From positions 50,798,282 through 50,862,281 of the forward strand of contig CM067317.1 of NCBI GenBank assembly GCA_034231615.1: a stretch of DNA of 64,000 bases, written 5' to 3'. The DNA comes from Meghimatium bilineatum. Taxonomy: Eukaryota > Mollusca > Gastropoda > Stylommatophora > Philomycidae. Below, piece by piece: positions 12,711-64,000 of this stretch. Within the stretch, counting starts at the first letter, position 1, and each line of letters opens with the position of its first letter. The notes below the pieces were generated by a model. The model saw nothing but the letters and a program-made list of their open reading frames with translations, was not told the DNA's origin and searched no databases. The translations under genes and the position numbers were made by a program.

Positions 12711-12715
12711 TATTA

Positions 12716-36767: not shown

Positions 36768-38523
36768 GTTATTTATTATTGTTTTATATCAATAGTTAGG
36801 TATTCACAGTAACCTGTTTACTTTATTTAGGATTTACCTTACTTAATTAGGGCAGCCTTAGATAAGCTCTTATTAAAAATTATAAACTACGTTTTTGTTA
36901 GATTTTTGATGATTGCGTATCTTCAACGCTGATACAGCGACCCTGACAACAGATATGCCTATAACTCCAGAGGGAACAAACAATCACGAGCATCAAAGAT
37001 TGCAACACAAAGTGATTTCTGGCGTATTCTTAAGCCGTTCGCTTTGTGCGCAAGTAGTCGTGGGTTTACATCCAGTTTGCTACATCTTGTTAAGAAAAAT
37101 GTTTTTCTTCCGGATTTCTGGATATTGTTGCTTGAAGCTTCGGAGCTGCGTGTGATAGGCCAACACTCGGAAGGCGGCGTGCCGCTTTGTCGAGAGGCAC
37201 TCACGAGCCAACTCCAGCACAACAATTATGTCAATCATCCACAACTTTCCTAGTGCATCACTATATCTGTATACATAAGTAACAATTATGCAGCAAACGG
37301 AATGTGCACCAGGTCTACGTAGATGGAACCCACTCGCCTCGCAACTTGAGTCGACACGTTTTCCGTCCTCGACCATATCGTGACCATATAAAAATGATGC
37401 GATTTTAGTCACGACTTTCAAAGTTTATATTCTTAAGCTCCTATGAATATGGACCGGTCGATGGGCACACATACAATAACAACACATACACTGCACATAT
37501 ACTATGTTGGCCTATGTAAAATCCCTGAGAGTAAATTATCGATGCTTCTCGATGTTCCGTTATGTCGTGATCTCATATATATATATAGGCATAGGGCATA
37601 TATAGGGCATATGCCCTATAAGTCAGTAGTACATTTTCCCTACGGACATCGTTTTTCCAAAAGAGGATACTACGAAATCGAGCGAGGACCATTTTAAAAA
37701 CAAATATTATAAAATCAAAGCTGTGTAATGTTTGTATTTTTCACATTTTATAAAATTATAGCGAGTTGTATAGTGGCGTTGACTTAGGAGTCATCTATCT
37801 AAGATAACAGTTGCATGTCCCAAACTTAATGAAGATTGTCTTGTCGAGACGTTAATTGTGTTCCCTATCTCCGATTTACATTGTTTGGAAATGTTGGATC
37901 CTGTACTGTTCTGTTATGACGATGTAGTTAGTATCGCTCTGCGGCGTTTATGTTTACAAATATCGCATCGAGAATCAAAGCTCTAGGATTCAGTCATTAT
38001 CATCTACAATAAAATTCTCACAAGTTACATGTAAACATCCGGCCTTTTTGACTCATCGACAGAAACACGCCACGACCAACTATATTGCGTGCCACTACCA
38101 TGAAGGTACTCACGTGTCGCCAGCCACAAAGAACGAAATAGCCTCTCGTGATGATACGAAATAATGCAGTGTAATGACGTGCTTTTGTCGATAGGTCAAA
38201 AAAGACCTCCGCAGAGTGGATGTTTACATACGACCTGTTATGAGTTCTATTGTAGATGGGCGTGATTCAGTGCACTAACTACTGTGATGTCGTGATCTCA
38301 TTACATTACACTGCTTCTGCATAACATCACTGTTTTTGAAGGTTTGTTATTTTCTCATTAATTTTATTTACTTCGTCTGTCTCTCCCCTGAGTACCTGGA
38401 GATTAATGTATAAGATTGCATGACAGACGGAAATTCGCACAAGTTTGTGACAATAAGAGGAGAGGTCAGCTGATCTTTGAGAAGGGAAAGAAGAAAATGT
38501 AGTGGAAATCCAGTGCATCGGGA
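36768..38523. other. Unassigned sequence bordering the giant array
   Basis: This stretch has more CpG than the AT-rich debris to its left, notably at 37000-37400 and 38040-38300, and no recognised transposon. TGACGT-like and palindromic AT motifs occur (37568-37620) but prove nothing. Open frames such as 37080-37421 on the minus strand have no known motif. It could hold a gene's regulatory end, or be part of a larger unit linked to the array. Confidence 0.35.
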
Positions 38524-41499
38524 CAGCATGTTGTCCAGACTGTCACTCACTCACAGATCACAACATATTGTCCAGACTGTCACTCACAGATCACAACATA
38601 TTGTCCAGATTGTCACTCACAGATCACAACATGTTGTCCAGATTGTCACTCACAGATCACAACATGTTGTCCAGACTGTCACTCACAGATCACAACATGT
38701 TGTCCAGATTGTCACTCACAGATCACAACATATTGTCCAGATTGTCACTCACAGATCACAACATATTGTCCAGATTGTCACTCACAGATCACAACATTTT
38801 GTCCAGACTGTCACTCACAGATCACAACATGTTGTCCAGACTGTCACTCACAGATCACAACATGTTGTCCAGACTGTCACTCACTCACAGATCACAACAT
38901 GTTGTCCAGACTGTCACTCACAGATCACAACATGTTGCCCAGATTGTCACTCACAGATCAAAACATGTTGTCCATACTGTCACTCACAGATCACAACATG
39001 TTGTCCAGACTGTCACTCACAGATCACAACATGTTGTCCAGATTGTCACTCACAGATCACAACATGTTGTCCAGATTGTCACTCACAGATCACAACATGT
39101 TGTCCAGACTGTCACTCAGATCACAACATGTTGTCCAGATTGTCACTCACAGATCACAACATATTGTCCAGACTGTCACTCACAGATCACAACATGTTGT
39201 CCAGATTGTCACTCACAGATCACAACATATTGTCCAGACTGTCACTCACAGATCACAACATATTGTCCAGACTGTCACTCACAGATCACAACATATTGTC
39301 CAGACTGTCACTCACAGATCACAACATATTGTCCAGACTGTCACTCACAGATCACAACATGTTGTCCAGATTGTCACTCACAGATCACAACATATTGTCC
39401 AGACTGTCACTCACAGATCACAACATGTTGTCCAGATTGTCACTCACAGATCACAACATGTTGTCCAGACTGTCACTCACAGATCACAACATGTTGTCCA
39501 GACTGTCACTCACAGATCACAACATGTTGTCCAGATTGTCACTCACTCACAGATCACAACATGTTGTCCAGATTGTCACTCACAGATCACAACATGTTGT
39601 CCAGACTGTCACTCACAGATCACAACATGTTGTCCAGATTGTCACTCACTCACAGATCACAACATGTTGTCCAGATTGTCACTCACAGATCACAACATGT
39701 TGTCCAGATTGTCACTCACAGATCACAACATATTGTCCAGACTGTCACTCACAGATCACAACATGTTGCCTAGATTGTCACTCACTCACAGATCACAACA
39801 TGTTGTCCAGATTGTCACTCACTCACAGATCACAACATGTTGTCCAGATTGTCACTCACTCACAGATCACAACATGTTGTCCAGATTGTCACTCACAGAT
39901 CACAACATGTTGTCCAGATTGTCACTCACAGATCACAACATATTGTCCAGACTGTCACTCACAGATCACAACATGTATCCCAGATTGTCACTCACTCACA
40001 GATCACAACATGGTGCCCAGATTGTCACTCACAGATCACAACATATTGTCCAGATTGTCACTCACAGATCACAACATGTTTTCCAGATTGTCACTCACAG
40101 ATCACAACATGTTGTCCAGATTGTCACTCACAGATCACAACATGTTGCCCAGATTGTCACTCACAGATCAAAACATGTTGTCCAGACTGTCATTCACAGA
40201 TCACAACATGTCCAGACTGTCACTCACTCACAGATCACAACATGTTGCACAGACTGTCACTCACAGATCACAACATGTTGTCCAGACTGTCACTCACTCA
40301 CAGATCACAACATGTTGTCCAGATTGTCACTCACTCACAGATCACAACATGTTGTCCAGATTGTCACTCACTCACAGATCACAACATGTTGTCCAGATTG
40401 TCACTCACTCACAGATCACAACATGTTGTCCAGATTGTCACTCACTCACAGATCACAACATGTTGTCCAGATTGCCACTCACTCACAGATCACAACATGT
40501 TGTCCAGATTGTCACTCACAGATCACAACATGTTGCCCAGATTGTCACTCACAGATCAAAAAATGTTGTCCAGACTGTCATTCACAGATCACAACATGTC
40601 CAGACTGTCACTTACTCACAGATCACAACATATTGTCCAGACTGTCACTCACAGATCACAACATGTTGTCCAGATTGTCACTCACTCACAGATCACAACA
40701 TGTTGTCCAGATTGTCAATCACAGATCACAACATGTTGCCCAGATTGTCACTCACAGATCAAAACATGTTGTCCAGACTGTCATTCACAGATCACAACAT
40801 GTCCAGAATGTCACTCACTCACAGATCACAACATATTGTCCAGACTGTCACTCACGCAGAGATCACAACATGTTGTCCAGAATGTCACTCACTCACAGAT
40901 CACAACATGTTGTCCAGATTGTCACTCACAGATCAAAACATGTTGTCCATACTGTCACTCACAGATCACAACATGTTGTCCAGATTGTCACTCACAGATC
41001 ACAACATATTGTCCAGACTGTCACTCACAGATCACAACATGTTGTCCAGATTGTCACTCACAGATCAAAACATGTTGTCCATACTGTCACTCACAGATCA
41101 CAACATGTTGTCCAGATTGTCACTCACAGATCAAAACATGTTGTCCAGACTGTCACTCACAGATCACAACATGTTGTCCAGACTGTCACTCACAGATCAC
41201 AACATGTTGTCCAGACTGTCACTACCTCACAGATCACAACATGTTGTCCAGACTGTCACTCACTCACAAATCACAACATGTTGTCCAGATTGTCACTCAC
41301 TCACAGATCACAACATGTTGTCCAGATTGTCACTCACAGATGACAACATGTTGTCCAGATTGTCACTCACAGATCACAACATGTTGTCCAGATTGTCACT
41401 CACTCACAGATCACAACATGTTGTCCAGATTGTCACTCACAGATCACAACATGTTGTCCAGATTGTCCCTCACAGATCACAACATATTGTCCAGACTGT

Positions 41500-44340
41500 C
41501 ACTCACTCACAGATCAAAACATGTTGTCCAGACTGTCACTCACAGATCACAACATGTTGTCCAGATTGTCACTCACAGATCACAACATGTTGTCCAGATT
41601 GTCACTCACTCACAGATCACAACATGTTGTCCAGATTGTCACTCACAGATCACAACATGTTGTCCAGATTGTCCCTCACATATCACAACATATTGTCCAG
41701 ACTGTCACTCACTCACAGATCACAACATATCCAGACTGTCACTCACTCACAGATCACAACATGTTGTCCAGATTGTCACTCACAGATCACAACATGTTGT
41801 CCAGACTGTCACTCACTCACAGATCACAACATGTCCAGACTGTCACTCACTCACAGATCACAACATGTTGTCCAGACTGTCACTCACAGATCACAACATG
41901 TTGTCCAGATTGTCACTCACTCACAGATTACAACATGTTGTCCAGATTGTCACTCACAGATCACAACATGTTGTCCAGATTGTCACTCACAGATCACAAC
42001 ATGTTGTCCAGATTGTCACTCACTCACAGATCACAACATGTTGTCCAGATTGTCACTCACTCACAGATCACAACATGTTGTCCAGATTGTCACTCACTCA
42101 CAGATCACAACATGTTGTCCAGATTGTCACTCACAGATCACAACATGTTGTCCAGATTGTCACTCACTCACAGATCACAACATGTTGTCCAGATTGTCAC
42201 TCACAGATCACAACATGTTGTCCAGATTGTCACTCACTCACAGATCACAACATGTTGTCCAGATTGTCACTCACAGATCACAACATGTTGTCCAGATTGT
42301 CACTCACTCACAGATCACAACATGTTGTCCAGATTGTCACTCACAGATCACAACATGTTGTCCAGATTGTCACTCACTCACAGATCACAACATGTTGTCC
42401 AGATTGTCACTCACTCACAGATCACAACATGTTGTCCAGATTGTCACTCACAGATCACAACATGTTGCCCAGATTGTCACTCACAGATCAAAACATGTTG
42501 TCCAGACTGTCATTCACAGATCACAACATGTCCAGACTGTCACTCACTCACAGATCACAACATGTTGCCCAGACTGTCACTCACAGATCACAACATATTG
42601 TCCAGACTGTCACTCACAGATCACAACATGTTGTCCAGATTGTCACTCACAGATCACAACATGTTGTCCAGACTGTCATTCACAGATCACAACATGTCCA
42701 GACTGTCACTCACTCACAGATCACAACATGTTGTCCAGATTGTCACTCACAGATCACAACATGTTGTCCAGATTGTCACTCACAGATCACAGCATGTTGT
42801 CCAGATTGTCACTCACTCACAGATCACAACATGTTGTCCAGATTGTCACTCACAGATCACAACATATTGTCCAGACTGTCATTCACAGATCACAACATGT
42901 CCAGACTGTCACTCACTCACAGATCAAAACATGTTGTCCAGACTGTCACTCACAGATCACAACATGTTGTCCAGACTATCACTCACAGATCACAACATGT
43001 TGTCCAGATTGTCACTCACTCACAGATCACAACATGTTGTCCAGATTGTCACTCACAGATCACAACATGTTGTCCAGATTGTCCCTCACATATCACAACA
43101 TATTGTCCAGACTGTCACTCACTCACAGATCACAACATATCCAGACTGTCACTCACTCACAGATCACAACATGTTGTCCAGATTGTCACTCACAGATCAC
43201 AACATGTTGTCCAGACTGTCACTCACTCACAGATCACAACATGTCCAGACTGTCACTCACTCACAGATCACAACATGTTGTCCAGACTGTCACTCACAGA
43301 TCACAACATGTTGTCCAGATTGTCACTCACTCACAGATCACAACATGTTGTCCAGATTGTCACTCACAGATCACAACATGTTGTCCAGATTGTCACTCAC
43401 AGATCACAACATGTTGTCCAGATTGTCACTCACTCACAGATCACAACATGTTGTCCAGATTGTCACTCACTCACAGATCACAACATGTTGTCCAGATTGT
43501 CCCTCACTCACAGATCACAACATGTTGTCCAGATTGTCACTCACAGATCACAACATGTTGTCCAGATTGTCACTCACTCACAGATCACAACATGTTGTCC
43601 AGATTGTCACTCACAGATCACAACATGTTGTCCAGATTGTCACTCACTCACAGATCACAACATGTTGTCCAGATTGTCACTCACAGATCACAACATGTTG
43701 TCCAGATTGTCACTTACAGATCAAAACATGTTGTCCAGATTGTCACTCACTCACAGATCACAACATGTTGTCCAGATTGTCACTCACAGATCAAAACATG
43801 TTGTCCAGATTGTCACTCACAGATCACAACATGTTGTCCAGACTGTCACTCACAGATCACAACATGTTGTCCATTTGTCACTCACTCACAGATCACAACA
43901 TGTTGTCCAGATTGTCACTCACTCACAGATCACAACATGTTGTCCAGATTGTCACTCACAGATCACAACATGTTGTCCAGATTGTCACTCACAGATCAAA
44001 ACATGTTGTCCAGACTGTCATTCACAGATCACAACATGTCCAGACTGTCACTCACTCACAGATCACAACATGTTGCCCAGACTGTCACTCACAGATCACA
44101 ACATATTGTCCAGACTGTCACTCACAGATCACAACATGTTGTCCAGATTGTCACTCACAGATCACAACATGTTGTCCAGACTGTCATTCACAGATCACAA
44201 CATGTCCAGACTGTCACTCACTCACAGATCACAACATGTTGTCCAGATTGTCACTCACAGATCACAACATGTTGTCCAGATTGTCAATCACAGATCACAG
44301 CATGTTGTCCAGATTGTCACTCACTCACAGATCACAACAT
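41500..44340 (+). repeat. Older block duplication inside the array (offset about 1.4-1.5 kb)
   Basis: The rare marker GTCCCTCACATATCAC occurs at 41671 and 43081 (offset 1410). The AGATCAAAAC lead-in at 41511 and 42921 shares that offset. Further right, CATGTTGCCCAGACTG (42561 and 44069) and CAGCATGTTG (42790 and 44298) share an offset of 1508, so units were gained between the blocks. Scattered differences show it is older than the 5962-bp duplication. Confidence 0.7.
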
Positions 44341-47300
44341 GTTGTCCAGATTGTCACTCACAGATCACAACATATTGTCCAGACTGTCATTCACAGATCA
44401 CAACATGTCCAGACTGTCACTCACTCACAGATCACAACATATTGTCCAGACTGTCACTCACGCAGAGATCACAACATGTTGTCCAGACTGTCACTCACTC
44501 ACAGATCACAACATATTGTCCAGACTGTCACTCACAGATCACAACATGTTGTCCAGATTGTCACTCACTCACAGATCACAACATGTTGTCCAGATTGTCA
44601 CTCACAGATCACAACATGTTGCCCAGATTGTCACTCACAGATCAAAACATGTTGTCCATACTGTCACTCACAGATCAAAACATGTTGTCCAGATTGTCAC
44701 TCACAGATCACAACATATTGTCCAGACTGTCACTCACAGATCACAACATGTTGTCCAGATTGTCACTCACAGATCAAAACATGTTGTCCAGACTGTCACT
44801 CACAGATCACAACATGTTGTCCAGACTGTCACTCACAGATCACAACATTTTGTCCAGACTGTCACTCACTCACAGATCACAACATGTTGTCCAGACTGTC
44901 ACTCACAGATCACAACATATTGTCCAGACTGTCACTCACAGATCACAACATATTGTCCAGACTGTCACTCACTCACAGATCACAACATGTTGTCCAGATT
45001 GTCACTCACTCACAGATCACAACATGTTGTCCAGATTGTCACTCACAGATCACAACATGTTGTCCAGATTGTCACTCACAGATCACAACATATTGTCCAG
45101 ACTGTCACTCACAGATCACAACATATTGTCCAGACTGTCACTCACTCACAGATCACAACATGTTGTCCAGATTGTCACTCACTCACAGATCACAACATGT
45201 TGTCCAGATTGTCACAAACAGATCACAACATGTTGTCCATATTGTCACTCACAGATCACAACATGTTGTCCAGATTGTCACTCACAGATCACAACATATT
45301 GTCCAGACTGTCACTCACTCACAGATCACAACATGTCCAGACTGTCACTCACTCACAGATCACAACATGTTGTCCAGATTGTCACTCACAGATCACAACA
45401 TGTTGTCCAGACTGTCACTCACTCACAGATCACAACATGTTGTCCAGACTGTCACTCACTCACAGATCACAACATGTTGTCCAGATTGTCACTCACAGAT
45501 CACAACATGTTGTCCAGATTGTCACTCACAGATCACAACATGTTGTCCAGATTGTCACTCACAGATCACAACATGTTGCCCAGATTGTCACTCACAGATC
45601 ACAACATGTTGTCCAGACTGTCACTCACAGATCAAAACATGTTGTCCAGACTGTCATTCACAGATCACAACATGTCCAGACTGTCACTCACAGATCACAA
45701 CATGTTGTCCAGATTGTCACTCACAGATCACAACATGTTGTCCAGACTGTCACTCACAGATCACAACATGTCCAGACTGTCACTCACAGATCATAACATG
45801 TTGTCCAGACTGTCATTCACAGATCACAACATGTTGTCCAGACTGTCACTCACAGATCACAACATGTTGTCCAGACTGTCATTCACAGATCACAACATGT
45901 CCAGACTGTCACTCACTCACAGATCACAACATGTCCAGACTGTCACTCACTCACAGATCACAACATGTTGTCCAGACTGTCACTCACAGATCACAACATG
46001 TTGTCCAGACTGTCATTCACAGATCACAACATGTCCAGACTGTCACTCACTCACAGATTACAACATGTCCAGACTGTCACTCATTCACAGATCACAACAT
46101 GTTGTCCAGACTGTCACTCACAGATCACAACATGTTGTCCAGACTGTCATTCACAGATCACAACATGTCCAGACTGTCACTCACTCACAGATCACAACAT
46201 GTCCAGACTGTCACTCACTCACAGATCACAACATGTTGTCCAGACTGTCACTCACAGATCACAACATGTTGTCCAGACTGTCATTCACAGATCACAACAT
46301 GTCCAGACTGTCACTCACTCACAGATCACAACATGTCCAGACTGTCACTCACTCACAGATCACAACATGTTGTCCAGACTGTCACTCACAGATCACAACA
46401 TGTTGTCCAGACTGTCATTCACAGATCACAACATGTCCAGACTGTCACTCACTCACAGATCACAACATGTCCAGACTGTCACTCATTCACAGATCACAAC
46501 ATGTTGTCCAGACTGTCACTCACAGATCACAACATGTTGTCCAGACTGTCACTCACAGATCAAAACATGTTGTCCAGACTGTCATTCACAGATCACAACA
46601 TGTCCAGACTGTCACTCACTCACAGATCACAACATGTCCAGACTGTCACTCACTCACAGATCACAACATGTTGTCCAGACTGTCACTCACAGATCACAAC
46701 ATGTTGTCCAGACTGTCATTCACAGATCACAACATGTCCAGACTGTCACTCACTCACAGATCACAACATGTCCAGACTGTCACTCATTCACAGATCACAA
46801 CATGTTGTCCAGACTGTCACTCACAGATCACAACATGTTGTCCAGACTGTCACTCACAGATCACAACATGTTGTCCAGACTGTCATTCACAGATCACAAC
46901 ATGTCCAGACTGTCACTCACTCACAGATCACAACATGTCCAGACTGTCACTCACTCACAGATCACAACATGTTGTCCAGACTGTCACTCACAGATCACAA
47001 CATGTTGTCCAGACTGTCATTCACAGATCACAACATGTCCAGACTGTCACTCACTCACAGATCACAACATGTCCAGACTGTCACTCATTCACAGATCACA
47101 ACATGTTGTCCAGACTGTCACTCACAGATCACAACATGTTGTCCAGACTGTCACTCACAGATCAAAACATGTTGTCCAGACTGTCATTCACAGATCACAA
47201 CATGTTGTCCAGACTGTCATTCACAGATCACAACATGTTGTCCAGACTGTCACTCACAGATCACAACATGTTGTCCAGACTGTCATTCACAGATCACAAC

Positions 47301-50300
47301 ATGTCCAGACTGTCACTCACTCACAGATCACAACATGTCCAGACTGTCACTCACTCACAGATCACAACATGTTGTCCAGACTGTCACTCACAGATCACAA
47401 CATGTTGTCCAGACTGTCATTCACAGATCACAACATGTCCAGACTGTCACTCACTCACAGATTACAACATGTCCAGACTGTCACTCATTCACAGATCACA
47501 ACATGTTGTCCAGATTGTCACTCACAGATCACAACATGTTGCCCAGATTGTCACTCACAGATCAAAACATGTTGTCCAGACTGTCATTCACAGATCACAA
47601 CATGTTGTCCAGACTGTCATTCACAGATCACAACATGTTGTCCAGACTGTCACTCACAGATCACAACATGTTGTCCAGACTGTCATTCACAGATCACAAC
47701 ATGTCCAGACTGTCACTCACTCACAGATCACAACATGTCCAGACTGTCACTCACTCACAGATCACAACATGTTGTCCAGACTGTCACTCACAGATCACAA
47801 CATGTTGTCCAGACTGTCATTCACAGATCACAACATGTCCAGACTGTCACTCACTCACAGATTACAACATGTCCAGACTGTCACTCATTCACAGATCACA
47901 ACATGTTGTCCAGACTGTCACTCACAGATCACAACATGTTGTCCAGACTGTCATTCACAGATCACAACATGTTCAGACTGTCACTCACTCACAGATCACA
48001 ACATGTCCAGACTGTCACTCACTCACAGATCACAACATGTTGTCCAGACTGTCACTCACAGATCACAACATGTTGTCCAGACTGTCATTCACAGATCACA
48101 ACATGTCCAGACTGTCACTCACTCACAGATCACAACATGTCCAGACTGTCACTCACTCACAGATCACAACATGTTGTCCAGACTGTCACTCACAGATCAC
48201 AACATGTTGTCCAGACTGTCATTCACAGATCACAACATGTCCAGACTGTCACTCACTCACAGATCACAACATGTCCAGACTGTCACTCATTCACAGATCA
48301 CAACATGTTGTCCAGACTGTCACTCACAGATCACAACATGTTGTCCAGACTGTCATTCACAGATCACAACATGTCCAGACTGTCACTCACTCACAGATCA
48401 CAACATATTGTCCAGACTGTCACTCACAGATCACAACATGTCCAGACTGTCACTCACAGATCACAACATATTGTCCAGACTGTCACTCACAGATCACAAC
48501 ATGTTGTCCAGATTGTCACTCACAGATCACAACATGTTGCCCAGATTGTCACTCACAGATCAAAACATGTTGTCCAGACTGTCATTCACAGATCACAACA
48601 TGTCCAGACTGTCACTCACTCACAGATCACAACATATTGTCCAGACTGTCACTCACAGATCACAACATGTCCAGACTGTCACTCACAGATCACAACATAT
48701 TGTCCAGACTGTCACTCACAGATCACAACATGTTGTCCAGATTGTCACTCACAGATCACAACATGTTGTCCAGATTGTCACTCACAGATCAAAACATGTT
48801 GTCCAGACTGTCACTCACAGATCACAACATGTTGTCCAGACTGTCACTCACAGATCACAACATGTTGTCCAGACTGTCACTCACTCACAGATCACAACAT
48901 GTTGCCCAGATTGTCACTCACAGATCACAACATGTTGTCCAGACTGTCACTCACTCACAGATCACAACATGTTGTCCAGACTGTCACTCACAGATCACAA
49001 CATGGTGTCCAGATTGTCACTCACAGATCACAACATGTTGTCCAGACTGTCACTCACAGATCACAACATGTTGTCCAGACTGTCACTCACAGATCACAAC
49101 ATGTTGTCCAGACTGTCACTCACAGATCACAACATGTTGTCCAGACTGTCACTCACAGATCACAACATGTTGTCCAGACTGTCACTCACAGATCACAACA
49201 TGTTGTCCAGACTGTCACTCACAGATCACAACATGTTGTCAAGACTGTCACTCACAGATCACAACATGTTGTCCAGACTGTCACTCACTCACAGATCACA
49301 ACATGTTCTCCAGACTGTCACTCACTCACAGATCACAACATGTTGTCCAGATTGTCACTCACAGATCACAACATGTTGTCCAGATTGTCACTCACTCACA
49401 GATCACAACATGTTGTCCAGATTGTCACTCACTCACAGATCACAACATGTTGTCCAGATTGTCCCTCACTCACAGATCACAACATGTTGTCCAGATTGTC
49501 ACTCACAGATCACAACATGTTGTCCAGATTGTCACTCACTCACAGATCACAACATGTTGTCCAGATTGTCACTCACAGATCACAACATGTTGTCCAGATT
49601 GTCACTCACTCACAGATCACAACATGTTGTCCAGATTGTCACTCACAGATCACAACATGTTGTCCAGATTGTCACTTACAGATCAAAACATGTTGTCCAG
49701 ATTGTCACTCACTCACAGATCACAACATGTTGTCCAGATTGTCACTCACAGATCAAAACATGTTGTCCAGATTGTCACTCACAGATCACAACATGTTGTC
49801 CAGACTGTCACTCACAGATCACAACATGTTGTCCATTTGTCACTCACTCACAGATCACAACATGTTGTCCAGATTGTCACTCACTCACAGATCACAACAT
49901 GTTGTCCAGATTGTCACTCACAGATCACAACATGTTGTCCAGATTGTCACTCACAGATCAAAACATGTTGTCCAGACTGTCATTCACAGATCACAACATG
50001 TCCAGACTGTCACTCACTCACAGATCACAACATGTTGCCCAGACTGTCACTCACAGATCACAACATATTGTCCAGACTGTCACTCACAGATCACAACATG
50101 TTGTCCAGATTGTCACTCACAGATCACAACATGTTGTCCAGACTGTCATTCACAGATCACAACATGTCCAGACTGTCACTCACTCACAGATCACAACATG
50201 TTGTCCAGATTGTCACTCACAGATCACAACATGTTGTCCAGATTGTCAATCACAGATCACAGCATGTTGTCCAGATTGTCACTCACTCACAGATCACAAC

Positions 50301-53300
50301 ATGTTGTCCAGATTGTCACTCACAGATCACAACATATTGTCCAGACTGTCATTCACAGATCACAACATGTCCAGACTGTCACTCACTCACAGATCACAAC
50401 ATATTGTCCAGACTGTCACTCACGCAGAGATCACAACATGTTGTCCAGACTGTCACTCACTCACAGATCACAACATATTGTCCAGACTGTCACTCACAGA
50501 TCACAACATGTTGTCCAGATTGTCACTCACTCACAGATCACAACATGTTGTCCAGATTGTCACTCACAGATCACAACATGTTGCCCAGATTGTCACTCAC
50601 AGATCAAAACATGTTGTCCATACTGTCACTCACAGATCAAAACATGTTGTCCAGATTGTCACTCACAGATCACAACATATTGTCCAGACTGTCACTCACA
50701 GATCACAACATGTTGTCCAGATTGTCACTCACAGATCAAAACATGTTGTCCAGACTGTCACTCACAGATCACAACATGTTGTCCAGACTGTCACTCACAG
50801 ATCACAACATTTTGTCCAGACTGTCACTCACTCACAGATCACAACATGTTGTCCAGACTGTCACTCACAGATCACAACATATTGTCCAGACTGTCACTCA
50901 CAGATCACAACATATTGTCCAGACTGTCACTCACTCACAGATCACAACATGTTGTCCAGATTGTCACTCACTCACAGATCACAACATGTTGTCCAGATTG
51001 TCACTCACAGATCACAACATGTTGTCCAGATTGTCACTCACAGATCACAACATATTGTCCAGACTGTCACTCACAGATCACAACATATTGTCCAGACTGT
51101 CACTCACTCACAGATCACAACATGTTGTCCAGATTGTCACTCACTCACAGATCACAACATGTTGTCCAGATTGTCACAAACAGATCACAACATGTTGTCC
51201 ATATTGTCACTCACAGATCACAACATGTTGTCCAGATTGTCACTCACAGATCACAACATATTGTCCAGACTGTCACTCACTCACAGATCACAACATGTCC
51301 AGACTGTCACTCACTCACAGATCACAACATGTTGTCCAGATTGTCACTCACAGATCACAACATGTTGTCCAGACTGTCACTCACTCACAGATCACAACAT
51401 GTTGTCCAGACTGTCACTCACTCACAGATCACAACATGTTGTCCAGATTGTCACTCACAGATCACAACATGTTGTCCAGATTGTCACTCACAGATCACAA
51501 CATGTTGTCCAGATTGTCACTCACAGATCACAACATGTTGCCCAGATTGTCACTCACAGATCACAACATGTTGTCCAGACTGTCACTCACAGATCAAAAC
51601 ATGTTGTCCAGACTGTCATTCACAGATCACAACATGTCCAGACTGTCACTCACAGATCACAACATGTTGTCCAGATTGTCACTCACAGATCACAACATGT
51701 TGTCCAGACTGTCACTCACAGATCACAACATGTCCAGACTGTCACTCACAGATCATAACATGTTGTCCAGACTGTCATTCACAGATCACAACATGTTGTC
51801 CAGACTGTCACTCACAGATCACAACATGTTGTCCAGACTGTCATTCACAGATCACAACATGTCCAGACTGTCACTCACTCACAGATCACAACATGTCCAG
51901 ACTGTCACTCACTCACAGATCACAACATGTTGTCCAGACTGTCACTCACAGATCACAACATGTTGTCCAGACTGTCATTCACAGATCACAACATGTCCAG
52001 ACTGTCACTCACTCACAGATTACAACATGTCCAGACTGTCACTCATTCACAGATCACAACATGTTGTCCAGACTGTCACTCACAGATCACAACATGTTGT
52101 CCAGACTGTCATTCACAGATCACAACATGTCCAGACTGTCACTCACTCACAGATCACAACATGTCCAGACTGTCACTCACTCACAGATCACAACATGTTG
52201 TCCAGACTGTCACTCACAGATCACAACATGTTGTCCAGACTGTCATTCACAGATCACAACATGTCCAGACTGTCACTCACTCACAGATCACAACATGTCC
52301 AGACTGTCACTCACTCACAGATCACAACATGTTGTCCAGACTGTCACTCACAGATCACAACATGTTGTCCAGACTGTCATTCACAGATCACAACATGTCC
52401 AGACTGTCACTCACTCACAGATCACAACATGTCCAGACTGTCACTCATTCACAGATCACAACATGTTGTCCAGACTGTCACTCACAGATCACAACATGTT
52501 GTCCAGACTGTCACTCACAGATCAAAACATGTTGTCCAGACTGTCATTCACAGATCACAACATGTCCAGACTGTCACTCACTCACAGATCACAACATGTC
52601 CAGACTGTCACTCACTCACAGATCACAACATGTTGTCCAGACTGTCACTCACAGATCACAACATGTTGTCCAGACTGTCATTCACAGATCACAACATGTC
52701 CAGACTGTCACTCACTCACAGATCACAACATGTCCAGACTGTCACTCATTCACAGATCACAACATGTTGTCCAGACTGTCACTCACAGATCACAACATGT
52801 TGTCCAGACTGTCACTCACAGATCACAACATGTTGTCCAGACTGTCATTCACAGATCACAACATGTCCAGACTGTCACTCACTCACAGATCACAACATGT
52901 CCAGACTGTCACTCACTCACAGATCACAACATGTTGTCCAGACTGTCACTCACAGATCACAACATGTTGTCCAGACTGTCATTCACAGATCACAACATGT
53001 CCAGACTGTCACTCACTCACAGATCACAACATGTCCAGACTGTCACTCATTCACAGATCACAACATGTTGTCCAGACTGTCACTCACAGATCACAACATG
53101 TTGTCCAGACTGTCACTCACAGATCAAAACATGTTGTCCAGACTGTCATTCACAGATCACAACATGTTGTCCAGACTGTCATTCACAGATCACAACATGT
53201 TGTCCAGACTGTCACTCACAGATCACAACATGTTGTCCAGACTGTCATTCACAGATCACAACATGTCCAGACTGTCACTCACTCACAGATCACAACATGT

Positions 53301-55135
53301 CCAGACTGTCACTCACTCACAGATCACAACATGTTGTCCAGACTGTCACTCACAGATCACAACATGTTGTCCAGACTGTCATTCACAGATCACAACATGT
53401 CCAGACTGTCACTCACTCACAGATTACAACATGTCCAGACTGTCACTCATTCACAGATCACAACATGTTGTCCAGATTGTCACTCACAGATCACAACATG
53501 TTGCCCAGATTGTCACTCACAGATCAAAACATGTTGTCCAGACTGTCATTCACAGATCACAACATGTTGTCCAGACTGTCATTCACAGATCACAACATGT
53601 TGTCCAGACTGTCACTCACAGATCACAACATGTTGTCCAGACTGTCATTCACAGATCACAACATGTCCAGACTGTCACTCACTCACAGATCACAACATGT
53701 CCAGACTGTCACTCACTCACAGATCACAACATGTTGTCCAGACTGTCACTCACAGATCACAACATGTTGTCCAGACTGTCATTCACAGATCACAACATGT
53801 CCAGACTGTCACTCACTCACAGATTACAACATGTCCAGACTGTCACTCATTCACAGATCACAACATGTTGTCCAGACTGTCACTCACAGATCACAACATG
53901 TTGTCCAGACTGTCATTCACAGATCACAACATGTTCAGACTGTCACTCACTCACAGATCACAACATGTCCAGACTGTCACTCACTCACAGATCACAACAT
54001 GTTGTCCAGACTGTCACTCACAGATCACAACATGTTGTCCAGACTGTCATTCACAGATCACAACATGTCCAGACTGTCACTCACTCACAGATCACAACAT
54101 GTCCAGACTGTCACTCACTCACAGATCACAACATGTTGTCCAGACTGTCACTCACAGATCACAACATGTTGTCCAGACTGTCATTCACAGATCACAACAT
54201 GTCCAGACTGTCACTCACTCACAGATCACAACATGTCCAGACTGTCACTCATTCACAGATCACAACATGTTGTCCAGACTGTCACTCACAGATCACAACA
54301 TGTTGTCCAGACTGTCATTCACAGATCACAACATGTCCAGACTGTCACTCACTCACAGATCACAACATATTGTCCAGACTGTCACTCACAGATCACAACA
54401 TGTCCAGACTGTCACTCACAGATCACAACATATTGTCCAGACTGTCACTCACAGATCACAACATGTTGTCCAGATTGTCACTCACAGATCACAACATGTT
54501 GCCCAGATTGTCACTCACAGATCAAAACATGTTGTCCAGACTGTCATTCACAGATCACAACATGTCCAGACTGTCACTCACTCACAGATCACAACATATT
54601 GTCCAGACTGTCACTCACAGATCACAACATGTCCAGACTGTCACTCACAGATCACAACATATTGTCCAGACTGTCACTCACAGATCACAACATGTTGTCC
54701 AGATTGTCACTCACAGATCACAACATGTTGTCCAGATTGTCACTCACAGATCAAAACATGTTGTCCAGACTGTCACTCACAGATCACAACATGTTGTCCA
54801 GACTGTCACTCACAGATCACAACATGTTGTCCAGACTGTCACTCACTCACAGATCACAACATGTTGCCCAGATTGTCACTCACAGATCACAACATGTTGT
54901 CCAGACTGTCACTCACTCACAGATCACAACATGTTGTCCAGACTGTCACTCACAGATCACAACATGGTGTCCAGATTGTCACTCACAGATCACAACATGT
55001 TGTCCAGACTGTCACTCACAGATCACAACATGTTGTCCAGACTGTCACTCACAGATCACAACATGTTGTCCAGACTGTCACTCACAGATCACAACATGTT
55101 GTCCAGACTGTCACTCACAGATCACAACATGTTGT
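43360..55135 (+). repeat. Tandem duplication of a 5962-bp block inside the array
   Basis: Seven or more rare markers recur at exactly 5962 bp: GTCCCTCACTCAC (43499, 49461), CCATTTGTCACTC (43861 and 49823 region), GTCACAAACAG (45211, 51173), TCATAACATG (45791, 51753), ATTACAACATG (47461, 53423), GTTCAGACTG (47971, 53933) and CATGGTGTCC (49001, 54963). The copies abut near 49322. Where compared, I saw no difference, so this is a very recent event or an assembly duplication. Confidence 0.85.
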
Positions 55136-58100
55136 CCAGATTGTCACTCACAGATCACAACATGTTGCCCAGATTGTCACTCACAGATCAAAACATGTTG
55201 TCCAGACTGTCATTCACAGATCACAACATGTTGTCCAGACTGTCATTCACAGATCACAACATGTTGTCCAGACTGTCACTCACAGATCACAACATGTTGT
55301 CCAGACTGTCATTCACAGATCACAACATGTCCAGACTGTCACTCACTCACAGATCACAACATGTCCAGACTGTCACTCACTCACAGATCACAACATGTTG
55401 TCCAGACTGTCACTCACAGATCACAACATGTTGTCCAGACTGTCATTCACAGATCACAACATGTCCAGACTGTCACTCACTCACAGATTACAACATGTCC
55501 AGACTGTCACTCATTCACAGATCACAACATGTTGTCCAGACTGTCACTCACAGATCACAACATGTTGTCCAGACTGTCATTCACAGATCACAACATGTTC
55601 AGACTGTCACTCACTCACAGATCACAACATGTCCAGACTGTCACTCACTCACAGATCACAACATGTTGTCCAGACTGTCACTCACAGATCACAACATGTT
55701 GTCCAGACTGTCATTCACAGATCACAACATGTCCAGACTGTCACTCACTCACAGATCACAACATGTCCAGACTGTCACTCACTCACAGATCACAACATGT
55801 TGTCCAGACTGTCACTCACAGATCACAACATGTTGTCCAGACTGTCATTCACAGATCACAACATGTCCAGACTGTCACTCACTCACAGATCACAACATGT
55901 CCAGACTGTCACTCATTCACAGATCACAACATGTTGTCCAGACTGTCACTCACAGATCACAACATGTTGTCCAGACTGTCATTCACAGATCACAACATGT
56001 CCAGACTGTCACTCACTCACAGATCACAACATATTGTCCAGACTGTCACTCACAGATCACAACATGTCCAGACTGTCACTCACAGATCACAACATATTGT
56101 CCAGACTGTCACTCACAGATCACAACATGTTGTCCAGATTGTCACTCACAGATCACAACATGTTGCCCAGATTGTCACTCACAGATCAAAACATGTTGTC
56201 CAGACTGTCATTCACAGATCACAACATGTCCAGACTGTCACTCACTCACAGATCACAACATATTGTCCAGACTGTCACTCACAGATCACAACATGTCCAG
56301 ACTGTCACTCACAGATCACAACATATTGTCCAGACTGTCACTCACAGATCACAACATGTTGTCCAGATTGTCACTCACAGATCACAACATGTTGTCCAGA
56401 TTGTCACTCACAGATCAAAACATGTTGTCCAGACTGTCACTCACAGATCACAACATGTTGTCCAGACTGTCACTCACAGATCACAACATGTTGTCCAGAC
56501 TGTCACTCACTCACAGATCACAACATGTTGCCCAGATTGTCACTCACAGATCACAACATGTTGTCCAGACTGTCACTCACTCACAGATCACAACATGTTG
56601 TCCAGACTGTCACTCACAGATCACAACATGGTGTCCAGATTGTCACTCACAGATCACAACATGTTGTCCAGACTGTCACTCACAGATCACAACATGTTGT
56701 CCAGACTGTCACTCACAGATCACAACATGTTGTCCAGACTGTCATTCACAGATCACAACATGTCCAGACTGTCACTCACTCACAGATCACAACATGTCCA
56801 GACTGTCACTCACTCACAGATCACAACATGTTGTCCAGACTGTCACTCACAGATCACAACATGTTGTCCAGACTGTCATTCACAGATCACAACATGTCCA
56901 GACTGTCACTCACTCACAGATTACAACATGTCCAGACTGTCACTCATTCACAGATCACAACATGTTGTCCAGACTGTCACTCACAGATCACAACATGTTG
57001 TCCAGACTGTCATTCACAGATCACAACATGTTCAGACTGTCACTCACTCACAGATCACAACATGTCCAGACTGTCACTCACTCACAGATCACAACATGTT
57101 GTCCAGACTGTCACTCACAGATCACAACATGTTGTCCAGACTGTCATTCACAGATCACAACATGTCCAGACTGTCACTCACTCACAGATCACAACATGTC
57201 CAGACTGTCACTCACTCACAGATCACAACATGTTGTCCAGACTGTCACTCACAGATCACAACATGTTGTCCAGACTGTCATTCACAGATCACAACATGTC
57301 CAGACTGTCACTCACTCACAGATCACAACATGTCCAGACTGTCACTCATTCACAGATCACAACATGTTGTCCAGACTGTCACTCACAGATCACAACATGT
57401 TGTCCAGACTGTCATTCACAGATCACAACATGTCCAGACTGTCACTCACTCACAGATCACAACATGTCCAGACTGTCACTCACTCACAGATCACAACATG
57501 TTGTCCAGACTGTCACTCACAGATCACAACATGTTGTCCAGACTGTCATTCACAGATCACAACATGTCCAGACTGTCACTCACTCACAGATTACAACATG
57601 TCCAGACTGTCACTCATTCACAGATCACAACATGTTGTCCAGACTGTCACTCACAGATCACAACATGTTGTCCAGACTGTCATTCACAGATCACAACATG
57701 TTCAGACTGTCACTCACTCACAGATCACAACATGTCCAGACTGTCACTCACTCACAGATCACAACATGTTGTCCAGACTGTCACTCACAGATCACAACAT
57801 GTTGTCCAGACTGTCATTCACAGATCACAACATGTCCAGACTGTCACTCACTCACAGATCACAACATGTCCAGACTGTCACTCACTCACAGATCACAACA
57901 TGTTGTCCAGACTGTCACTCACAGATCACAACATGTTGTCCAGACTGTCATTCACAGATCACAACATGTCCAGACTGTCACTCACTCACAGATCACAACA
58001 TGTCCAGACTGTCACTCATTCACAGATCACAACATGTTGTCCAGACTGTCACTCACAGATCACAACATGTTGTCCAGACTGTCATTCACAGATCACAACA

Positions 58101-58970
58101 TGTCCAGACTGTCACTCACTCACAGATCACAACATATTGTCCAGACTGTCACTCACAGATCACAACATGTCCAGACTGTCACTCACAGATCACAACATAT
58201 TGTCCAGACTGTCACTCACAGATCACAACATGTTGTCCAGATTGTCACTCACAGATCACAACATGTTGCCCAGATTGTCACTCACAGATCAAAACATGTT
58301 GTCCAGACTGTCATTCACAGATCACAACATGTCCAGACTGTCACTCACTCACAGATCACAACATATTGTCCAGACTGTCACTCACAGATCACAACATGTC
58401 CAGACTGTCACTCACAGATCACAACATATTGTCCAGACTGTCACTCACAGATCACAACATGTTGTCCAGATTGTCACTCACAGATCACAACATGTTGTCC
58501 AGATTGTCACTCACAGATCAAAACATGTTGTCCAGACTGTCACTCACAGATCACAACATGTTGTCCAGACTGTCACTCACAGATCACAACATGTTGTCCA
58601 GACTGTCACTCACTCACAGATCACAACATGTTGCCCAGATTGTCACTCACAGATCACAACATGTTGTCCAGACTGTCACTCACTCACAGATCACAACATG
58701 TTGTCCAGACTGTCACTCACAGATCACAACATGGTGTCCAGATTGTCACTCACAGATCACAACATGTTGTCCAGACTGTCACTCACAGATCACAACATGT
58801 TGTCCAGACTGTCACTCACAGATCACAACATGTTGTCCAGACTGTCACTCACAGATCACAACATGTTGTCCAGACTGTCACTCACAGATCACAACATGTT
58901 GTCCAGACTGTCACTCACAGATCACAACATGTTGTCCAGACTGTCACTCACAGATCACAACATGTTGTCA
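53471..58970 (+). repeat. Nested later duplications of 1664, 1433 and 670 bp
   Basis: Marker GTTCAGACTG recurs at 53933, 55597, 57030 and 57700 (offsets 1664, 1433, 670). Marker CATGGTGTCC recurs at 54963, 56627 and 58730 (offsets 1664, 2103 = 1433 + 670). The sum 5962 + 1664 + 1433 + 670 = 9729 also places the single TGTCAAGACTG at 49237 and 58966. This is a consistent history of successive unequal exchanges in one direction of the array. Confidence 0.8.
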
Positions 58971-60559
58971 AGACTGTCACTCACAGATCACAACATGTTG
59001 TCCAGACTGTCACTCACTCACAGATCACAACATGTTCTCCAGACTGTCACTCACTCACAGATCACAACATGTTGTCCAGATTGTCACTCACAGATCACAA
59101 CATGTTGTCCAGACTGTCACTCACTCACAGATCACAACATGTTGTCCAGACTGTCACTCACAGATCACAACATGTTGCCCAGATTGTCACTCACAGATCA
59201 AAACATGTTGTCCAGACTGTCACTCACAGATCACAACATATTGTCCAGACTGTCACTCACAGATCACAACATATTGTCCAGACTGTCACTCACAGATCAC
59301 AACATATTGTCCAGACTGTCACTCACAGATCACAACATGTTGTCCAGACTGTCACTCACAGATCACAACATGTTGTCCAGACTGTCACTCACAGATCACA
59401 TCATGTTGACCAGACTGTCACTCACAGATCACAACATGTTGTCCAGACTGTCACTCACAGATCACAACATGTTGCCCAGATTGTCACTCACAGATCACAA
59501 CATATTGTCCAGACTGTCACTCACAGATCACAACATGTTGTCCAGACTGTCACTCACAGATCACAACATGTTGTCCAGACTGTCACTCACAGATCACAAC
59601 ATGTTGCCCAGACTGTCACTCATTGATCACAACATGTTGCCCAGACTGTCATTCGCAGATCACAACATGTTGTCCAGACTGCCACTCACTCACAGATCAC
59701 AACATGTTGCCCAGATTGTCACTCACAGATCACAACATGTTGTCCAGACTGTCATTCACAGATCACAACATGTCCAGACTGTCACTCACTCACAGATCAC
59801 AACATGTTGTCCAGACTGTCACTCACTCACAGATCACAACATGTCCAGACTGTCACTCACTCACAGATCACAACATGTTGTCCAGACTGTCACTCACAGA
59901 TCACAACATGTTGTCCAGATTGTCACTCACAGATCACAACATGTTGCCCAGATTGTCACTCACAGATCAAAACATGTTGTCCAGACTGTCACTCACAGAT
60001 CACAACATGTTGTCCAGACTGTCACTCACTCACAGATCACAACATGTTGTCAAGACTGTCACTCACAGATCATAACATGTTGTCCAGACTGTCACTCACT
60101 CACAGATCACAACATGTCCAGACTGTCACTCACTCACAGATCACAACATGTTGTCCAGACTGTCACTCACAGATCACAACATGTTGTCCAGTTTGTCACT
60201 CACAGATCACAACATGTTGCCCAGATTGTCACTCACAGATCAAAACATGTTGTCCAAACTGTCATTCACAGATCACAACATGTCCAGACTGTCACTCACT
60301 CACAGATCACAACATATTGTCCAGAATGTCACTCACAGATCACAACATGTTGTCCAGACTGTCATTCACAGATCACAACATGTCCAGATTGTCACTCACT
60401 CACAGATCACAACATATTGTCCAGACTGTCACTCACAGATCACAACATGTTGTCCAGATTGTCACTCATAGATCACAACATGTTGCCCAGATTGTCACTC
60501 ACAGATCAAAACATGTTGTCCAGACTGTCATTCACAGATCACAACATGTCCAGACTGTC

Positions 60560-63500
60560 ACTCACTCACAGATCACAACATATTGTCCAGACTGTCACTC
60601 ACAGATCACAACATGTTGTCCAGATTGTCACTCACAGATCACAACATGTTGCCCAGATTGTCACTCACAGATCAAAACATGTTGTCCAGACTGTCATTCA
60701 CAGATCACAACATGTCCAGACTGTCACTCACTCACAGATCACAACATATTGTCCAGACTGTCACTCACAGATCACAACATGTTGTCCAGATTGTCACTCA
60801 CAGATCACAACATGTTGCCCAGATTGTCACTCACAGATCAAAACATGTTGTCCAGACTATCATTCACAGATCACAACATGTCCAGACTGTCACTCACTCA
60901 CAGATCACAAGATGTTGCCCAGATTGTCACTCACAGATCACAACATGTTGTCCAGACTGTCACTCACAGATCACAACATGTCCAGACTGTCACTCACAGA
61001 TCACAACATGTTGTCCAGACTGTCACTCACAGATCACAACATGTTGTCCAGATTGTCACTCACAGATCACAACATATTGTCCAGACTGTCACTCACAGAT
61101 CACAACATGTCCAGACTGTCACTCACAGATCAAAACATGTTGCCCAGATTGTCACTCACAGATCAAAACATGTTGCCCAGATTGTCACTCACAGATCAAA
61201 ACATGTTGCCCAGATTGTCACTCACAGATCACAACATGTTGCCCAGATTGTCACTCACTCACAGATCACAACATGTTGCCCAGATTGTCACTCACAGATC
61301 AAAACATGTTGTCCAGACTGTCACTCACTCACAGATCACAACATGTTGTCCAGACTGTCACTCACTCACAGATCACAACATGTTGTCCAGACTGTCACTC
61401 ACTCACAGATCACAACATGCTGCCCAGATTGTCACTCACAGATCAAAACATGTTGCCCAGATTGTCGCTCACAGATCACAACATGTTGTCCAGACTGTCA
61501 CTCACAGATCACAACATGTTGTCCAGACTGTCACTCACTCACAGATCACAACATGTTGTCCAGACTGTCACTCACAGATCAAAACATGTTGCCCAGATTG
61601 TCACTCACAGATCAAAACACGTTGTCCAGACTGTCACTCACAGATCACAACATGTTGCCCAGATTGTCACTCACTCACAGATCACAACATGTTGCCCAGA
61701 TTGTCACTCACAGATCACAACATGTTGTCCAGACTGTCACTCACAGATCACAACATGTCCAGACTGTCACTCACTCACAGATCACAACATGTTGTCCAGA
61801 CTGTCACTCACAGATCACAACATGTTGCCCAGATTGTCACTCACAGATCACAACATATTGTCCAGACTGTCACTCACAGATCACAACATGTTGCCCAGAT
61901 TGTCACTCACAGATCAGAACATATTGTCCAGACTGTCACTCACAGATCACAACATGTTGTCCAGACTGTCACTCACAGATCACAACATGTTGTCCAGACT
62001 GTCACTCACAGATCACAACATGTTGCCCAGACTGTCACTCACAGATCACAACATGTTGCCCAGACTGTCATTCACAGATCACAACATGTTGTCCAGACTG
62101 CCACTCACTCACAGATCACAACATGTTGCCCAGATTGTCACTCACAGATCACAACATGTTGTCCAGACTGTCATTCACAGATCACAACATGTTGTCCAGA
62201 CTGTCACTCACTCACAGATCACAACATGTTGTCCAGACTGTCACTCACTCACAGATCATAACATGTTGTCCAGACTGTCACTCACTCACAGATCACAACA
62301 TGTCCAGACTGTCACTCACTCACAGATCATAACATGTTGTCCAGACTGTCACTCACTCACAGATCACAACATGTCCAGACTGTCACTCACTCACAGATCA
62401 CAACATGTCCAGACTGTCACTCACTCACAGATCACAACATGTTGTCCAGACTGTCACTCACTCACAGATCATAACATGTTGTCCAGACTGTCACTCACTC
62501 ACAGATCACAACATGTCCAGACTGTCACTCACAGATCACAACATATTGTCCAGACTGTCACTCACAGATCACAACATGTTGTCCAGATTGTCACTCACAG
62601 ATCACAACATGTTGCCCAGATTGTCACTCACAGATCAAAACATGTTGTCCAGACTGTCATTCACAGATCACAACATGTCCAGACTGTCACTCACTCACAG
62701 ATCACAACATATTGTCCAGACTGTCACTCACAGATCACAACATGTTGTCCAGACTGTCATTCACAGATCACAACATGTCCAGACTGTCACTCACTCACAG
62801 ATCACAACATATTGTCCAGACTGTCACTCACAGATCACAACATGTTGTCCAGATTGTCACTCACAGATCACAACATGTTGCCCAGATTGTCACTCACAGA
62901 TCAAAACATGTTGTCCAGACTGTCATTCACAGATCACAACATGTCCAGACTGTCACTCACTCACAGATCACAACATATTGTCCAGACTGTCACTCACAGA
63001 TCACAACATGTTGTCCAGATTGTCACTCACAGATCACAACATGTTGCCCAGATTGTCACTCACAGATCACAACATGTTGTCCAACCTGTCACTCACAGAT
63101 CACAACATGTCCAGACTGTCACTCACAGATCACAACATGTTGTCCAGACTGTCACTCACAGATCACAACATGTTGTCCAGATTGTCACTCACAGATCACA
63201 ACATATTGTCCAGACTGTCACTCACAGATCACAACATGTCCAGACTGTCACTCACAGATCACAACATATTGTCCAGACTGTCACTCACAGATCACAACAT
63301 GTCCAGACTGTCACTCACAGATCAAAACATGTTGCCCAGATTGTCACTCACAGATCAAAACATGTTGCCCAGATTGTCACTCACAGATCAAAACATGTTG
63401 CCCAGATTGTCACTCACAGATCACAACATGTTGCCCAGATTGTCACTCACTCACAGATCACAACATGTTGCCCAGATTGTCACTCACAGATCAAAACATG

Positions 63501-63990
63501 TTGTCCAGACTGTCACTCACTCACAGATCACAACATGTTGTCCAGACTGTCACTCACTCACAGATCACAACATGTTGTCCAGACTGTCACTCACTCACAG
63601 ATCACAACATGTTGCCCAGATTGTCACTCACAGATCAAAACATGTTGCCCAGATTGTCACTCACAGATCACAACATGTTGTCCAGACTGTCACTCACAGA
63701 TCACAACATGTTGTCCACACTGTCACTCACTCACAGATCACAACATGTTGTCCAGACTGTCACTCACAGATCAAAACATGTTGCCCAGATTGTCACTCAC
63801 AGATCAAAACACGTTGTCCAGACTGTCACTCACAGATCACAACATGTTGCCCAGATTGTCACTCACTCACAGATCACAACATGTTGCCCAGATTGTCACT
63901 CACAGATCACAACATGTTGTCCAGACTGTCACTCACAGATCACAACATGTCCAGACTGTCACTCACTCACAGATCACAACATGTTGTCCA
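60560..63990 (+). repeat. Block duplication near the right end (offset about 2192 bp)
   Basis: A run of three ATCAAAACATGTTGCCC units at 61127-61210 recurs at 63319-63402, and the single AAAACACGTTGTCC variant at 61614 recurs at 63806, both 2192 bp apart. Left of these markers the two blocks differ by a few extra units, so the duplication has since gained or lost units. Confidence 0.7.
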
Positions 63991-64000
63991 GACTGTCACT

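Follow-up and report, generated by a model that had tools for sequence, protein, structure and literature searches.

A 45-kb locus-private minisatellite in the slug Meghimatium bilineatum, probably grown hierarchically by out-of-register duplication

The window analysed here, a 64,000-bp stretch of the Meghimatium bilineatum genome (GCA_034231615.1, CM067317.1, positions 50,798,282 to 50,862,281), ends in a single tandem array of period 33 bp, 755.8 copies of which lie inside the window according to TRF. The array continues 19.5 kb beyond the window end, so that in this one assembly TRF places it from 38,523 to window-equivalent position 83,477 (C20:50836804-50881758), with a length of 44,955 bp and 1,339.8 copies. 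The original prediction had described an uninterrupted 33-bp array with a sharp left edge at 38,524 that runs out of the window after 25 kb; the edge agrees to within one base, and the true extent is larger than had been noted. Minisatellites (VNTRs) are tandem arrays of head-to-tail units of roughly 10-100 bp, and the sequence is of this kind: splitting the whole array yields 1,338 units, all head-to-tail in the same orientation, with lengths of 33 bp (n = 957), 37 bp (178), 34 bp (155), 30 bp (45), 36 bp (2) and 31 bp (1). The basic unit measures 33 bp and has two indel variants; the GC content is 43-45%. There are no insertions in the array, every unit being too short to contain one, in keeping with the prediction that it houses no mobile element.

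Ordinary repeat-bearing DNA borders the array on both sides. In the left 38.5 kb, 38 stretches of at least 60 bp (10,213 bp, 26.5%) match other slug DNA, about 254 kb of which was compared, and two of the five open frames tested there match RVT_1; a mobile element every 1-2 kb, as had been proposed for this region, is therefore plausible, though not all of these stretches need be transposons. An RD3-like exon lies 11 kb left of the array. The sequence abutting the left edge returned the locus itself as its only match in a genome search that omits very common words. On the right, a repeat of high copy number that includes a reverse transcriptase frame begins about 100 bp from the array edge, and these first ~100 bp of flank gave no match in the 40 places scored out of 1,336 candidates.

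Features of the array and its left flank (window coordinates; positions above 64,000 are window-equivalents)
Feature	Position	Strand	Basis
Left flank, single genome match	38262..38522	.	Genome search, query 38262-38530
In-window portion of the 33-bp minisatellite	38523..64000	+	TRF, unit split
Left part, holding most singleton units	38523..43359	+	17/31 singletons within the first 150 of 1,338 units
Older 1.4-kb duplication, starting in the left part	41569/42979	+	7 mismatches per 1,390 aligned bp, 4 gaps
Tandem duplication, 5,962-bp period	43360..55283	+	Initial 5,819 bp identical
4-unit higher-order repeat, types A-F-E-E/Q/O	45820..48390 (approximate bounds)	+	Lag-4 unit-type match
Tandem duplication, 1,664-bp period	53451..56778	+	1,630 bp identical; 1 mismatch and 2 gaps at end
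Right domain start, 6.2-kb and 9.1-kb tandem duplications	61678..64000, on to 83,444	+	Unit order, alignment

A layered organization is evident from the order of unit types along the array. Units four apart are of the same type at a frequency of 0.27-0.32 between 43.5 and 60 kb, against 0.079 expected, and at 0.175 over the whole array, against a maximum of 0.116 among 200 shuffles of unit order; the 4-unit higher-order repeat is seen again in copies further right. The lag-4 excess, present over part of its length, and the kb-scale blocks give the array higher-order repeat structure. The tandem blocks of 1.7, 6.0, 6.2 and 9.1 kb show, per duplication, 1-8 mismatches between aligned copies and one or two gaps, giving divergences of 4e-4 to 1.3e-3 across whole blocks, with exact tracts of up to 5,819 bp. 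In the copies with the 5,962-bp period, all 8 mismatches and both gaps are confined to the final 143 bp, whereas the 6.2-kb duplication (61678/67887; 2 mismatches in 6,242 bp) and the 9.1-kb duplication (65123/74199; 9,072 of 9,076 aligned bp identical, one 169-bp gap) differ at scattered sites and by gaps of whole units. Block junctions lie at ~49,322, 55,115, 67,887 and 74,199, and the older 1.4-kb pair has diverged by 5e-3. The degenerate units found at 83,311-83,444, close to the right edge, recur at 74,066-74,199, the join of the 9.1-kb duplication, indicating that the right end grew by whole-block duplication.

We searched the genome for the unit with a pattern tolerating up to 3 mismatches, which misses more divergent units; all 1,119 matches lie inside this array, none is on the reverse strand, and a control pattern read backward has no match genome-wide. 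The number of units that fall inside duplicated blocks is likewise 1,119 (of 1,338), an equality that is coincidental. At this tolerance a unit common to many chromosomes is not supported, and the sequence evidence points to one interstitial locus rather than a centromeric, subtelomeric or transposon-borne family. Arrays on C5, C16 and C24, chosen as the top hits in a genome where arrays are very numerous, show 68-72% resemblance to the unit; among the pairs listed the closest reach about 63%, and the matches to these three loci span 44,931 of the 44,955 array bases. Their scores exceed the maxima of 200 shuffles, at 24 versus 15 for C5 (29-bp unit, 6.2 kb), 26 versus 16 for C24 (31-bp unit) and 16 versus 11 for C16 (19-bp unit), and they could be wider relatives of the unit.

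The length and homogeneity of the array and its higher-order repeat recall many centromeric satellites, and holocentric chromosomes have been proposed, in the part of the literature consulted, for another slug, in which case a private interstitial array would be compatible by position with a centromeric role. A centromeric, subtelomeric or other heterochromatic satellite family is nonetheless very unlikely, given a unit confined to a single locus at up to 3 mismatches, the nearby RD3-like exon and the ordinary repeat-bearing DNA on both sides; the subtelomeric block that had been suggested also does not fit a position of 50.84-50.88 Mb on a 68.45-Mb scaffold, 74% along its length. The reverse transcriptase repeat close to the right edge could instead mean that a transposon carried or seeded the array, in the manner of the Helentron-borne arrays of oyster; we regard this as highly improbable, since the left flank, very common words aside, matches only itself, the right-flank repeats begin only from ~100 bp out in the 40 places scored, and no copy of the unit occurs elsewhere in the genome within 3 mismatches.

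Identical 5.8-kb copies could also be produced by mis-assembly, and with a contig N50 of only 1.36 Mb according to the published account (PMC10770140), an assembler might have created or lost block duplications or length. That such an artefact explains the locus is unlikely: neither the array nor the 174 kb spanning it contains a single N, the differences between the 6.2- and 9.1-kb copies are scattered and include gaps of whole units, and the 71.33 Gb of HiFi reads, with a length listed as 18.6 kb (PMC10770140, as far as its data description goes), are longer than the near-exact repeats of up to 9.1 kb. Least credible is the reading of the + strand as a giant gene for a repetitive protein; this strand carries a 6,021-codon open frame at 41344-59406 and is almost stop-free in all three frames, with 54 stops where the minus strand has 4,353. 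The 34- and 37-bp units, 333 of the 1,338, shift the frame, and stop-free units are common, accounting for 10 of the 35 units taken from other minisatellites of the slug and for 16.6% of shuffles; together these rule out a coding role for the long open frames. The huge frames are by-products of the unit sequence, as is the missing CpG. The latter, at 12 CpG in the 45 kb (observed/expected 0.006, versus 0.44 in 48.5 kb to the left), was considered and ruled out as a special feature, 22 of the 35 other units having no CpG either.

We favor, with a probability of about 85%, a locus-private, interstitial, non-coding minisatellite whose hierarchical growth to 45 kb came from recombination or replication out of register. 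Judging from the flanks, it probably originated in single-copy sequence; the 33-bp unit would have been amplified, then organized locally into the 4-unit higher-order repeat, and then enlarged by tandem duplications of ~1.7-9 kb. The driver may have been misaligned recombination or replication inside the array, that is, unequal sister-chromatid exchange or break-induced or synthesis-dependent repair; we infer this enzymatic route, and likewise the absence of a host function. The ~1,340 copies would then be due largely to recent block duplication within the array, which would account for its homogeneity, and most of the array may simply be too young to have received transposon insertions. Of the explanations offered originally, rapid recent expansion and turnover are both supported by the 1.7-9.1-kb blocks with their low divergence and by the older 1.4-kb pair. 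A special mechanism that purges insertions is needless if most of the array is young.

The array is a large example of an already known kind of sequence, and the locus is ordinary in kind: TRF tandem repeats make up 317 Mb, or 19.46%, of the published assembly, whose totals, in the part of that report consulted, describe no single array (PMC10770140). The human 16q24.1 minisatellite near FOXF1, as described in part of its report (PMC4411736), is similar in having a 33-bp imperfect unit and in being interstitial, large and near transposon-derived DNA; its length in the human reference is 8,688 bp and it is reported as polymorphic, whereas the slug array is five times longer, has another unit sequence and is known from one assembly. 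Tandem repeats are also a large share of the stylommatophoran genome of Deroceras laeve, where TRF adds 28.39% and arrays of more than 100 kb are reported, but in the part of that account consulted (PMC12506671) the long arrays are GC-rich, lie especially at chromosome ends and in many cases contain TTAGGG, unlike the interstitial array with its 43-45% GC and private unit. Short satellite-like arrays are interspersed in the oyster genome as well; in the section of that work consulted (PMC7492417) these are carried by mobile elements, whereas the slug array has no recurring element in its flanks as far as tested. What the present locus offers is an order of unit types that makes growth readable stepwise in one assembled array, the unit first, then the tetramer and then the kb-scale blocks, right-edge duplication included.

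No known RNA family matches the 64-kb window at Rfam gathering scores. A 200-base segment from one place, equal to about six units, gives at best a weak signal of single-strand folding: z is -1.10 on the + strand, a value equalled by 31 of 200 shuffles, and -2.53 on the - strand, equalled by 2 of 200.

In 179 kb of slug DNA not picked for arrays there are 35 of them, and even the longest is shorter than the present 45 kb by a factor of ~20. Against shuffles that preserve single-base composition only, the 33-bp unit scores a mean of 7.74 with the 35 other units (null 7.05; 3 of 40 shuffles reach 7.74), and the 35 units score 7.88 all-against-all (7.42-7.62 in 10 shuffles), or 7.77 without the top pair (7.37-7.75 in 20 shuffles); the two top-scoring pairs are adjoining arrays in flanks. 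These scores do not establish a core motif common to the unit and local minisatellites; the units may thus share a slight likeness, perhaps compositional, which counts mildly against fully unrelated units. A genome that is about one fifth tandem repeats, with sampled units little alike, bears on why some lineages form many minisatellites. It is conceivable, if doubtful, that slug genomes repeatedly turn arbitrary ~20-55-bp single-copy sequences into private arrays, enlarged by blocks that scale with the array, a few reaching tens of kb; slugs would then have an unusually active minisatellite generator, and the history of one runaway would be preserved in this array in legible, fossil form. Among twelve arrays, three of them picked by resemblance and with long exact repeats arising trivially in low-variant arrays, the ratio of the longest exact internal repeat to array length is 0.06-0.32 in eleven and 0.75 in the twelfth, a hint only that block size scales with array length.

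The 33-bp array is genuine: a minisatellite of unusual length at a single locus, whose history of block duplication can still be read, in a slug genome rich in minisatellites. TRF finds it as a single array of period 33 from 38523 to the end of the window, and reading on along its contig, C20, places the right end at C20:50881758; it does run past the window end, as the original prediction held, with a little over half of its length inside. On the extended sequence TRF gives 44,955 bp and 1,339.8 copies with no N. The array lies 74% along the C20 scaffold, not at an end, so the suggestion of a subtelomeric block is not borne out. The assembly containing it is 1.612 Gb in 32 contigs; the published assembly of Meghimatium bilineatum (Stylommatophora, Philomycidae) has 25 pseudo-chromosomes and 7 scaffolds, 1.61 Gb, and was built with HiFi reads (listed length 18,638 bp; 71.33 Gb) (PMC10770140).

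Features of the array, its neighbourhood and look-alike arrays (window numbering, carried on along C20 past 64,000; L011 to L014 are stretches of C20 right of the window)
Feature	Position	Size	Details
33-bp array	38523-83,477		
Open frame in array (+)	41344-59406	6,021 codons	
Block pair	43360/49322	period 5,962	identical over the first 5,819 bp; every difference (8 mismatches, 2 gaps) falls in the final 143 bp
Block pair	53451/55115	period 1,664	identical for 1,630 bp; 1 mismatch, 2 gaps beyond
Block pair	61678/67887	6.2 kb	6 scattered mismatches, two gaps (441 bp)
Block pair	65123/74199	9.1 kb	4 mismatches, one 169-bp (five-unit) gap
Block pair	61678/76963	6,242 bp	2 mismatches
Older pair	41569/42979		7 differences in 1,390 aligned sites; 4 gaps
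Second minisatellite	33904-34627	28 copies	26-bp unit
Exon-like open frame (+)	26915-27379		RD3 (retinal degeneration 3) match, E 7.1e-19
Reverse transcriptase fragment, then DUF6451 (PF20049) match (+)	12694-13611		
Reverse transcriptase fragment, then DUF6451 (PF20049) match (-)	L011:7049-7468		both below Pfam's cut-offs
Open frame (-)	98458-100083 (L012:4458-6083)	542 codons	
Open frame (-)	112623-115757 (L013/L014)	1,045 codons	overlaps a tandem repeat with a unit of 51 bp, or 17 codons
Look-alike array	C5 (L019)	6.2 kb	29-bp unit; picked through resemblance to the 33-bp unit
Look-alike array	C24 (L020)		31-bp unit
Look-alike array	C16 (L021)		19-bp unit

A pattern search with a 32-base unit, allowing up to 3 mismatches, returned 1,119 matches across the genome, 0 of them on the reverse strand, and a control pattern returned 0. 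The local count in the C20 array is likewise 1,119; the unit is therefore found nowhere else at up to 3 mismatches, and at that threshold the idea that it might occur on many chromosomes is not supported. A 269-bp query from the left flank has a single genome match. In the right flank, roughly 100 bp stay unmatched before a high-copy repeat begins, judged on 40 scored places out of 1,336 candidates; this repeat shows weak similarity to reverse transcriptase, at E 0.001, which does not reach the Pfam cut-off. Given these flanks and the private unit, a transposon-borne origin of the array is not supported. Resemblances of 68-72% to the unit do occur on C5, C16 and C24, where the units resemble it beyond shuffles; in blastn against these three loci 44,931 of the 44,955 array bases are covered, with the best pairs reaching about 63%. 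This likeness may be a chance best-of-many or distant kinship.

The array splits into 1,338 units of 98 types, all in one orientation: 957 of 33 bp, 178 of 37, 155 of 34, 45 of 30, 2 of 36 and 1 of 31. The 37-bp form has one additional CACT step, the 30-bp form is without three bases of TGTTGT, and the 34-bp form combines both changes; all three look like slippage variants. Many units contain the 12-bp palindrome ACAACATGTTGT; within the window the count is 390. None is long enough to contain an insertion, in agreement with the earlier description of the array as transposon-free. Stop codons across three frames of the 45 kb number 54 on the + strand and 4,353 on the minus strand, leaving the + strand frame in the table and other frames of several thousand codons. 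We find no evidence that these represent a giant protein gene: 333 units shift the frame, and 10 of 35 other slug units (period 15-70, at least 4 copies) are equally stop-free, so that an open frame is not evidence of a gene here. CpG is nearly absent from the array because the unit is CpG-free, as are 22 of the same 35.

Neighbouring units are not the most alike. The same-type match is 0.108 at lag 1 and 0.175 at lag 4, against an expectation of 0.079 and a maximum of 0.116 in 200 shuffles; lags 8, 12 and 16 give 0.144-0.155, and lags 2, 9, 13, 17, 18 and 20 slightly exceed the shuffle maximum. Most of the lag-4 signal stems from the stretch at 43.5-60 kb, where a tetramer A-F-E-E/Q/O repeats and the match is 0.27-0.32, against 0.16 further left and 0.04-0.11 further right. 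At a larger scale, 1,119 of the 1,338 units (equal to the pattern-search count by coincidence) lie in blocks of at least 20 units with a near-identical partner. In the 43360/49322 pair, the mismatches and gaps probably lie past the exchange point. Odd units at 83,311-83,444, close to the right edge, are seen again at 74,066-74,199, at the join of the 9.1-kb duplication, indicating that the array lengthened at its right end by block duplication; one odd right-edge motif is also present singly at 60,908.

Recent duplication made much of the array's length. With no differences in 5,819 bp, a tract chosen for being exact, divergence has a 95% upper limit near 5e-4; across whole blocks it is 4.4e-4 to 1.3e-3. 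If slugs mutate at an assumed 1e-9 to 1e-8 per site and generation, the duplications would date back some 22,000 to 670,000 generations; with gene conversion they could be older than they look. The original prediction offered rapid expansion or a turnover that purges insertions: recent block duplication is indeed seen, and we infer a young, fast-turning array in which absent transposons need no purging mechanism.

The array is a further case of an already known sort of sequence, not a new sort. TRF repeats in this slug amount to 317 Mb, 19.46% (PMC10770140), and 17.3% of a 50,000-bp sample (four contigs, each sampled at five evenly spaced 2.5-kb stretches, 20 in all) lies in repeats of period at least 9. 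Both array flanks and this sample, 179,045 bases not selected for arrays, hold 35 arrays of at least 150 bp (a list separate from the 35 units compared above; arrays at stretch ends are cut). The longest is 2,283 bp, so that the C20 array is some 20 times longer, in a comparison that covers these 179,045 bases. The 33-bp unit has no clear likeness to the 35 other slug units, its mean score against them being reached in 3 of 40 shuffles; against one another, those 35 units score slightly above shuffles. Tandem repeats also make up a large share of the Deroceras laeve genome, with arrays >100 kb (PMC12506671), and the human 16q24.1 minisatellite (33-bp unit, 8.7 kb, reported polymorphic) is a close analogue in sort (PMC4411736). 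Passages from papers on Arion vulgaris and Laevicaulis alte contributed no figures on tandem repeats; the Laevicaulis alte paper proposes holocentric chromosomes. A literature search of titles and abstract openings, including Meghimatium with minisatellite, found no account of the C20 array. The window holds a shorter second minisatellite as well.

On its sequence match, the RD3-like frame marks a putative host gene some 11 kb to the left of the array. Close to the array's left edge, at 38000-38261, two arms, each about 40 bp long, resemble, by eye, inverted repeats as at the ends of MITE-like elements. To the right, the 542-codon frame looks membrane-spanning by eye and has no Pfam match at E 0.01; the 1,045-codon frame, unlike the 33-bp array, may encode a true repeat protein. 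The reverse transcriptase fragments followed by DUF6451 matches suggest that DUF6451, whose function is unknown, belongs to a LINE family of this slug genome.
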